A stretch of 64,000 nt of DNA. Origin: Phormidesmis priestleyi Ana. Lineage in GTDB: Bacteria > Cyanobacteriota > Cyanobacteriia > Phormidesmidales > Phormidesmidaceae. Positions 58,158 to 64,000 of this stretch are shown here, in pieces. Made by a program: the position numbers and the translations under genes. Location: NCBI GenBank assembly GCA_001314865.1, contig LJZR01000015.1, forward strand, positions 62,001 to 126,000. Direction: 5' to 3'. Below the pieces are notes generated by a model. The model searched no databases. It was not told the DNA's origin and saw only the letters and a list, made by a program, of their open reading frames with translations. Within the stretch, counting starts at the first letter, position 1; the number at the start of each line of letters is the position of its first letter.

Positions 58158-58336
58158 AGCGATTGTCTCCTAAATGTATATATAACAACGCGTAAAAAAT
58201 AGGGCGTCAGTTAGGGCGTGCAGTCCCTTAGGCCAACTTACTAAATTTTGTCCTTTCTAAATTCTCCCTGAAGACAGGCATCTGAGCGGTAAAATCTGAA
58301 ATCTCGACTGAAATTCTGCAAGTGATTAGCAAGCGC

Positions 58337-58750
58337 ATGCCAAAGCAAAACAAGGGCCAGGCCAATAAAGCGACCGCTAATAAAGCGACCGCTAATAAAG
58401 CGACCGCCAATAAAGCGACCGCCAATAAAGCGACCGATAGAGTGGTTTATTCTGAGTTTGGCCCCCCCACTGCTGCCACCGAACGCCCAGTGCCAGATTT
58501 GCCACCCAACCAGCAAGACCTGCTCATACAGGTTTCACGCAAGGGGCGCAAAGGCAAGAGCGTAACCATTATTAGCGGCTTTGCCCACAAGACCGAGACA
58601 ATTGAGGCACTGGCCAAAAATCTCAAAGCTCAGTGCGGATCGGGTGGTACGGTCAAAGACAACAGCATAGAAATTCAGGGAGAACATGCTAGCAAGCTAG
58701 TTTCCCTACTGGTAAAAAAAGGCTACAAAGCCAAAATTAGCGGAGGTTGA
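58337..58750 (+). CDS. SUI1/eIF1-like translation factor (YciH type)
   Basis: A 137-residue protein from ATG 58337, five codons after a GTG that opens the frame. The C-terminal 80 residues are a SUI1 domain: LLIQVSRKGRKGKSVTIISG, KTETIEALAKNLKAQCGSGG, VKDNSIEIQGEHASKLVSLL, KKGYKAKISGG. In bacteria YciH helps start-site fidelity in translation; the cyanobacterial version probably has the same fold. The N-terminal linker contains (ANKAT)5, encoded by a 15-bp array, which is not part of the fold. The GH10-like gene starts 7 bp downstream, so the pair may be co-transcribed. Confidence 0.9.
   Translation: MPKQNKGQANKATANKATANKATANKATANKATDRVVYSEFGPPTAATERPVPDLPPNQQDLLIQVSRKGRKGKSVTIISGFAHKTETIEALAKNLKAQCGSGGTVKDNSIEIQGEHASKLVSLLVKKGYKAKISGG
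58361..58435 (+). repeat. 15-bp in-frame array in SUI1 gene
   Basis: Five units of GCCAATAAAGCGACC (58361, 58376, 58391, 58406, 58421); two carry GCT for GCC. They encode ANKAT repeats. The opposite strand is also open here, giving artefact frames. Confidence 0.97.
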
Positions 58751-62818: not shown

Positions 62819-62860
62819 CTAGGGACTTTCTTCTAGGGACTCTCTTTTAGGGACTTTCTT
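62819..62860. repeat. 14-bp array holding the HEAT gene stop
   Basis: Units CTAGGGACTTTCTT (62819), CTAGGGACTCTCTT (62833) and TTAGGGACTTTCTT (62847). The third contains the last codons and the TAA stop (62847-62849) of the minus-strand HEAT gene; the other two give TAG in the same place. Confidence 0.95.
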
Positions 62861-63518
62861 CTAGCCGTTTGAGTGAAATTTGGGCCGCTTCGGAGACCTG
62901 TGAATGACTGTCTTTGGCTAGGTAGCGAAGGGCAGAGACGCTTTTTGGGGTGGGCAGGTGGCCCAGGGCTTCGGCGAGGCGCTGGCGGACGAGCCAGTCT
63001 TCGGACTGAGCAAAGTTTAGAATGTGGTCAACAGCGTCTAGGTCTTCGATTTCGCCTAGGGCTGCGATCGCAGCCTGCTGAATGACCACTTCTTTACTGT
63101 CCAAAGCGGCGATCAGCGCATCGTGCGCCTGAGGATTTTTAAGATTGCCTAAAGACACCGCTGCGCTGAAGCGAACCAGCCAGTCCACATCTTCGTACAG
63201 CGTTTTGACGAGGGGATCAAAAGCGCGGGGATCTTCTAAGTAGCCCAGCGCGCCAGCCGCATCCGCGCGTAGTCCGTAGTCAGGATCATTCTCTAAAACA
63301 TTGATCAATAGCTCATAACATTCGTCAGTTTGCTTAACTCCAAGGGCAAAAATGGCCATCGATCTGACCTGCTCGTTTTTGTCGTTCAACACTTTTTTGA
63401 TCAGTGGAACAGCCTTGTCGGCAGGCACTTCGCGAAGGGACGCAAGGGCAATTTTGCGAGCAGCAATGTTACCGGTTTCGAGTTGACGGGCGAGCATTTC
63501 AAGATCAGGCTGGGTCAT
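62847..63518 (-). CDS. HEAT-repeat protein (PBS-lyase type, NblB-like)
   Basis: A 223-residue alpha-solenoid from ATG 63518 (MTQPDLEMLARQLETGNIAA); the frame opens 11 codons further. Six to seven HEAT units are visible, for example VRSMAIFALGVKQTDECYEL, LRADAAGALGYLEDPRAFDP, VRFSAAVSLGNLKNPQAHDA and VRQRLAEALGHLPTPKSVSA. The size and repeat form resemble NblB, which acts with NblA in phycobilisome degradation, and phycobilin lyases CpcE/F; no lyase-specific partner is adjacent, so NblB-like is the cautious call. It ends in a 14-bp array. Confidence 0.8.
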   Translation of the reverse strand: MTQPDLEMLARQLETGNIAARKIALASLREVPADKAVPLIKKVLNDKNEQVRSMAIFALGVKQTDECYELLINVLENDPDYGLRADAAGALGYLEDPRAFDPLVKTLYEDVDWLVRFSAAVSLGNLKNPQAHDALIAALDSKEVVIQQAAIAALGEIEDLDAVDHILNFAQSEDWLVRQRLAEALGHLPTPKSVSALRYLAKDSHSQVSEAAQISLKRLEESP

Positions 63519-63573
63519 AAGTTCAAAGCAAGCACCCAGAGCTAGGGGCACTATTTAATAAAGTTAATAGGGG

Positions 63574-64000
63574 CTACGACTTTATTATAAGTTCGCTAGC
63601 TGAAGCGATGAGCGTAACGCGATCGCCATAAGTGATATCTCTGATTTTCGGAAGCAATAACTCAATGACCGAAGGATCTTGAAAATGATCAATTTTAGTC
63701 TCAGGGCAGGGATAGTAAATGAGGCCCACGGCTGTCTGCTGCTGCCAGATAAAGCGAATCGGCACAAATGAAAAGCTCTCAGCGTCGTGACCAGGAGACC
63801 ACTTCACCTGATGCAGCGTGACCGGAGGCAATAGCGCAAAGCGATAAGGGGCAATAGAAACATTGAGCGTACCGGGATAAAAGGGCGAAAGATCTACGCC
63901 GAGCGCTGCAAAATGAGGGGTTTGCAGCGCAATGGTGCCAGCAGGATAGGGACTATTCTTACCGAGCCCCGAGGCGACTTGATAGCCAGGGACAACTTTT
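63574..64000 (-). CDS. CTP-dependent riboflavin kinase-like (DUF120-type) protein, partial
   Basis: The gene enters from the right edge; its last 141 codons are visible (63574-63999; 64000 is the last base of an incomplete codon). The visible part matches the archaeal RibK (DUF120) fold: VASGLGKNSPYPAGTIAL near the start, then LSPFYPGTLNVSIAP, where PGTLN is the family's Mg/nucleotide motif, then IRFIWQQQTAVGLIYYPCP and VIELLLPKIRDITYGDRVTL, like the family's C-terminal IEIIAP-DGD strand. Archaeal RibK phosphorylates riboflavin with CTP; bacteria normally use RibF. Function is inferred from motif order only. It is 55 bp upstream of the HEAT gene start. Confidence 0.65.
   Translation of the reverse strand, partial: KVVPGYQVASGLGKNSPYPAGTIALQTPHFAALGVDLSPFYPGTLNVSIAPYRFALLPPVTLHQVKWSPGHDAESFSFVPIRFIWQQQTAVGLIYYPCPETKIDHFQDPSVIELLLPKIRDITYGDRVTLIASASELIIKS

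Follow-up and report, generated by a model that had tools for sequence, protein, structure and literature searches.

A bacterial protein family, found mainly in cyanobacteria, that shares the fold and the putative kinase centre of archaeal riboflavin kinase RibK

The archaeal riboflavin kinase RibK (PF01982/DUF120) is typified by MJ0056, which PDB titles, and that of Ammelburg et al. 2007 (cited in PMC8305020), describe as using CTP. The same kinase fold is joined to DNA binding in the archaeal regulator RbkR (title of 5trd; PMC8305020). In CaFADS, the FADS of Corynebacterium ammoniagenes, replacement of T208, N210, or E268 with Ala or Asp in every case prevented FMN production, and E268D left traces of FAD (PMC2573891). 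We infer that these three residues correspond to T43, N45, and E107 of MJ0056. The titles and opening abstract lines of the accessible literature describe no bacterial family of the kind reported here.

The gene lies at the edge of a 64,000-nucleotide stretch of Phormidesmis priestleyi Ana (the window, contig positions 62001-126000). Positions 63574-63999 on the minus strand hold the C-terminal 141 codons and the stop codon of a riboflavin-kinase-fold gene, taken from the list of open reading frames (ORFs), and this ORF is still open where the window ends. An earlier sequence-only reading of the window had proposed obtaining the remainder. The contig supplied it: the complete gene (window positions 63574-64059; L001:4575-5060, minus strand, contig G000:C118) has 161 codons and a GTG start at 64059, 59 bp beyond the window edge. 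Residues 1-20 of the 161-residue protein are incomplete in the window, and residue numbers refer to the full protein. Every peptide quoted in that reading is present in ORF 63574-63999, and the ORF is judged real beyond chance from its matches in other phyla and in 28 of the 57 further genomes of relatives. Elsewhere in the window, an ORF at 58322-58750 (plus strand) carries five A-N-K-A-T repeats near its N terminus; we take its C-terminal part to be like a SUI1-type translation factor.

Sequence searches alone did not connect this protein to RibK. No Pfam or NCBIfam family matched the window protein at an E value of ≤1, the full 161-residue protein had no Pfam match at E ≤ 10, and PF01982 had no match in the organism's own genome. 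A PDB sequence search with the window protein returned nothing at E 10, and one with the family profile returned no RibK, only two unrelated entries (E 0.96 and 1.9). Nine of 36 family members scanned singly matched PF01982 weakly (best E 0.0069), and the sole other Pfam match among the 36 was DUF5329 in one member (E 0.0034). The link to RibK therefore requires profile-profile or fold comparison. In hhalign, the 36 family sequences matched MJ0056 plus 3cta with a probability of 71% (E 3.7e-5) and a set of six RibK sequences, one from Azoarcus included, with a probability of 91.9% (E 7e-7, 121 columns, score 45.9), where each E value refers to a single pairwise comparison and not to a database search. 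The best score among 200 column-shuffled controls was 25.3 (probability 12%), and the reversed profile scored 12.0; judged by these controls the match is significant, in a pairwise form of the HHpred check that had been proposed.

The predicted structures agree. AlphaFold2 models were obtained for a complete homologue with 69% identity (locus L032; pLDDT 87.3, pTM 0.81) and for the window's own 141 residues (pLDDT 87.8, pTM 0.82). With the homologue model, Foldseek against the PDB gave five matches at E ≤ 0.001, all of them MJ0056, with TM-scores of 0.53 to 0.65. VIA-align placed the MJ0056 CDP/FMN complex (2vbv_A) first for both the homologue (Z 13.5, rmsd 2.3, 126 aligned) and the window fragment (Z 12.1, rmsd 2.4, 117 aligned), followed by RbkR (5trd_A, Z 10.7; 5trd_B, Z 9.7, respectively) and 3cta (Z 7.3 and 6.4). 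The first row outside the archaeal riboflavin kinases was 3op1_C with both models (Z 6.7 and 5.5). Its PDB title is macrolide-efflux protein SP_1110; we presume it to be pneumococcal RibF, and it is perhaps itself a distant relative of the fold. Comparison with MJ0056, which the sequence-only reading had named as a check, thus recovered the RibK fold from predicted models, and we regard homology to the archaeal CTP-dependent riboflavin kinase, together with a shared fold, as close to certain. That reading was right to see a bacterial homologue of the RibK fold. Its placement in DUF120 proper was not supported, as PF01982 misses both the window protein, which is not a member at the curated score, and the full protein.

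Residue equivalences to MJ0056 were taken from the profile alignment, in which T64 and N66 align with T43 and N45 and E133 aligns with E107. T43, N45, and E107 are invariant in six of six RibK sequences, and T64, N66, and E133 are invariant in all 74 unique aligned family sequences, as are G41, Q46, F50, G54, W87, E94, F96, F98, Y115, T121, and K122. T64-L65-N66 (63862-63870, minus strand; coordinates computed from the ORF) is expected to be the Mg/phosphate motif by analogy with CaFADS T208 and N210, and E133 (63661-63663, minus strand) is expected to be the catalytic base by analogy with CaFADS E268. Two further stretches, both defined in the 74-sequence alignment, are signatures of the family: E-x-F-S-F, here E94-S-F-S-F98 (63766-63780, minus strand), in which S97 is kept in 71 of the 74 sequences, and YYPHPETKxxHFQ, here Y115-YPCPETKIDHF-Q127 (63679-63717, minus strand), where the window protein has Cys118 at a position occupied by His in 68 of 74.

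The site expected to bind the nucleotide is less alike. RibK has G14 and G16 of a G-x-G loop in six of six sequences; G14 aligns with family G25, and G16 aligns with a position that is not conserved. The ASGLG stretch that had been read as the glycine loop is conserved in part, A, S, and G each being kept in 73 of 74 sequences, while L32 and G33 are not conserved and read Q-A, L-T, Q-G, and so on in other members; the archaeal S-G-L-G-E-G aligns upstream of it, with P-G-Y-Q-V-A. Two other landmarks of the reading did align with RibK in the profile comparison, the PGTLN stretch and the IELLLP strand. So did the last strands at the C terminus, except that the archaeal LREQ stands opposite a gap. 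RibK R115 (six of six) likewise faces a four-residue gap, no conserved Arg is found there, and the loop that follows the Glu is shorter by four residues in the family than in RibK. Of the putative CTP-binding residues proposed for checking, the family therefore keeps the T-x-N motif and lacks both the glycine loop and LRE. The absence of these two elements and the shorter loop suggest that the donor site differs from that of RibK, and on these alignments CTP cannot be assumed to be the donor.

In the genomes sampled, most members of the family are cyanobacterial, its distribution is patchy, and some copies are broken. Among relatives, 29 of 58 genomes, own genome included, and 28 of the 57 others gave matches in a protein search (E ≤ 1e-3), with identities of up to 69%. 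In a sample of 386 genomes of the phylum, 48, own genome included, or about one in eight, were positive in a profile search (E ≤ 1e-5). Three of these 48 matches are interrupted by stop codons (G230, G232, and G313) and are apparently decaying copies. Such patchy presence and broken copies show that the gene is dispensable. The 12 related loci that were confirmed include Leptolyngbya, Picosynechococcus, Acaryochloris, Aliikangiella, Thalassotalea, Metallococcus, and a Verrucomicrobia MAG. Five of 398 genomes from the phylum to which the Aliikangiella genome belongs were positive, that genome included, and for the phylum of the Metallococcus genome the single positive among 296 was the Metallococcus genome itself.

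A separate RibF gene, which the sequence-only reading had expected besides this one, is present on contig C9 (G000:C9), where it gives the genome's one match to PF01687 (Flavokinase); the family gene does not match. All 60 family-positive genomes tested have RibF, which rules out the family gene as a RibF replacement. Directly downstream of the family gene, on the same strand after a gap of 22 bp, lies a gene for a HEAT-repeat protein (62847-63551, minus strand; Pfam HEAT_2 on the L080 orthologue). Two loci of this genus, L080 and L081, keep the same order, and the HEAT-repeat protein is probably just a neighbour. Among those listed, immediate neighbours vary, with NlpC/P60, QueF, ScpB, and a phosphoribosyltransferase elsewhere, and most contexts seen are not flavin-related. 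In G019, RibD follows the family gene on the same strand after 80 bp; in G026, a member of that genus, it was read by eye beside the family gene, and no other genus has this neighbour among the contexts seen.

A fixed context occurs in one group of genomes (f2; 2 to 3 Mb), which we take to be picocyanobacteria. TerC, DUF6464, and the family gene follow one another on one strand in 15 of 15 f2 loci examined (L041, L042, and L100-L112; Pfam names from L101), and outside f2 the context is not conserved. Several f2 members carry a C-terminal extension without a Pfam match. At one f2 locus (L104:6070-7022), the kinase-like part is followed downstream by an ORF of its own that holds this extension. 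G390 encodes a fusion protein in which a cpYpsA SLOG domain (Pfam E 9.6e-32 for L115) precedes the family domain. The same fusion is seen by eye in G056 (L088), of the same genus, where the start of the cpYpsA part looks disturbed. The two fusions group with a Pseudanabaena plasmid gene in the tree (support 0.97).

On balance, we consider it probable that the family is a catalytically competent kinase, a distant sister of RibK, that acts on riboflavin or a related small molecule, a reading drawn from the sequences and the models. It would be a single-domain enzyme with the riboflavin-kinase (cradle-loop/RIFT barrel) fold that binds NTP and Mg2+ through T64 and N66, and E133 would deprotonate the terminal hydroxyl of a small molecule and so allow its phosphorylation. 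The acceptor would be held in a rebuilt pocket including some of W87, E94-x-F-S-F98, and YYPHPETKxxHF. The analysis shows homology, a predicted fold, conserved catalytic residues, and a RibF that coexists with the family; that the protein is active, which nucleotide and acceptor it uses, and where the signatures sit in the pocket are what we infer from these. Residue conservation makes an active kinase likely, and a riboflavin or flavin-like acceptor is the most economical guess. Since RibF can make housekeeping FMN, the enzyme would be an accessory beside it. A regulator that retained the fold and binds a flavin or nucleotide without catalysis has a precedent in RbkR, and the loss of the RibK glycine loop would suit it. 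We think such a regulator unlikely, as the T, N, and Glu of the kinase centre are present in 74 of 74 sequences and the 161-residue protein has no Pfam match to a DNA-binding domain.

A more serious rival keeps the fold and the active kinase and changes the acceptor, which would be some other small molecule of an unrecognised accessory pathway. Outside the kinase core, the signatures vary little or not at all within the family and differ from those of RibK, phosphorylation of riboflavin would be redundant where RibF is present, as it is wherever tested, and most contexts are not flavin-related. The TerC-DUF6464 order and the SLOG fusions point the same way. Nothing names the acceptor, however, RibD adjoins the gene in one genus, and the constant context is confined to f2. 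We therefore rate a non-flavin acceptor as possible rather than probable, and equally tentative is its extension to a new bacterial kinase family for a non-riboflavin metabolite, linked to TerC/DUF6464 in picocyanobacteria and to SLOG in one other genus. Many cyanobacteria can make FO (8-hydroxy-5-deazaflavin), which makes an FO kinase conceivable. CofG was found in 26 of 48 family-positive genomes, the organism's own among them, versus 104 of 338 other genomes (Fisher P = 0.002, not corrected for kinship). The 22 family-positive genomes of the 48 in which CofG had no match at E 1e-30 refute FO phosphorylation as a general function and leave it a very improbable reading.

Phage and defence origins were also considered. 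In a phage collection, the window protein had no match at E 0.01, and neither an f2 member with the extension nor the Azoarcus DUF120 protein had one at E 1; MJ0056 as the query gave three rows at E 8, none significant. The best PHROG match of any of the 36 members had an E value of 0.13, and the best viral-structure match had one of 0.055. On these results, phage origin was rejected. DUF120 is listed among the genes of five cyanophage genomes in a 2010 paper (PMC3037559, Table 2). PADLOC gave no match at E 1 among 36 members, and a role as a defence gene was rejected on that basis.

A formerly nameless protein can thus be assigned a fold and a likely active site, along with a few candidate substrates, and the archaeal RibK superfamily is extended into bacteria that already have RibF. 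If the acceptor is new, it would reveal a small-molecule pathway, probably in picocyanobacteria too.

Among the known systems, RbkR, represented by 5trd and 3cta, has a similar kinase-domain fold (5trd, Z 10.7 and 9.7) and differs by its N-terminal DNA-binding domain, which the 161-residue protein lacks (Pfam, E ≤ 10). The flavokinase domain of RibF (PF01687) has the same broad barrel type and a similar T-x-N ... Glu logic, and it is a weaker structural match (1s4m, Z 5.7 and 5.0; 5a89, Z 5.3). The same superfamily is represented in a bacterium by the DUF120 protein of an Azoarcus sp. KH32C plasmid, which, unlike the family, is a full PF01982 match (E 4.4e-29). Its gene (L075:5974-6411) is flanked by ubiX and a NUDIX gene within a UbiX/UbiD-type cluster for phenylphosphate carboxylase, and the product may be an archaeal-type kinase of a bacterium, feeding into the synthesis of prenyl-FMN. 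The nearest relative by fold remains RibK itself. Compared with MJ0056, the family lacks the GxGEG loop and LRE, is about seven residues longer from the first strand to the helix end, has E-x-F-S-F and YYPHPETKxxHF as signatures of its own, coexists with RibF, and, in the window protein, escapes Pfam as PF01982. At 15 to 20% identity in structural alignments, it shares with RibK the fold over nearly the whole domain, the T-x-N and Glu in their Y-x-G-T-L-N context, and the final strands.
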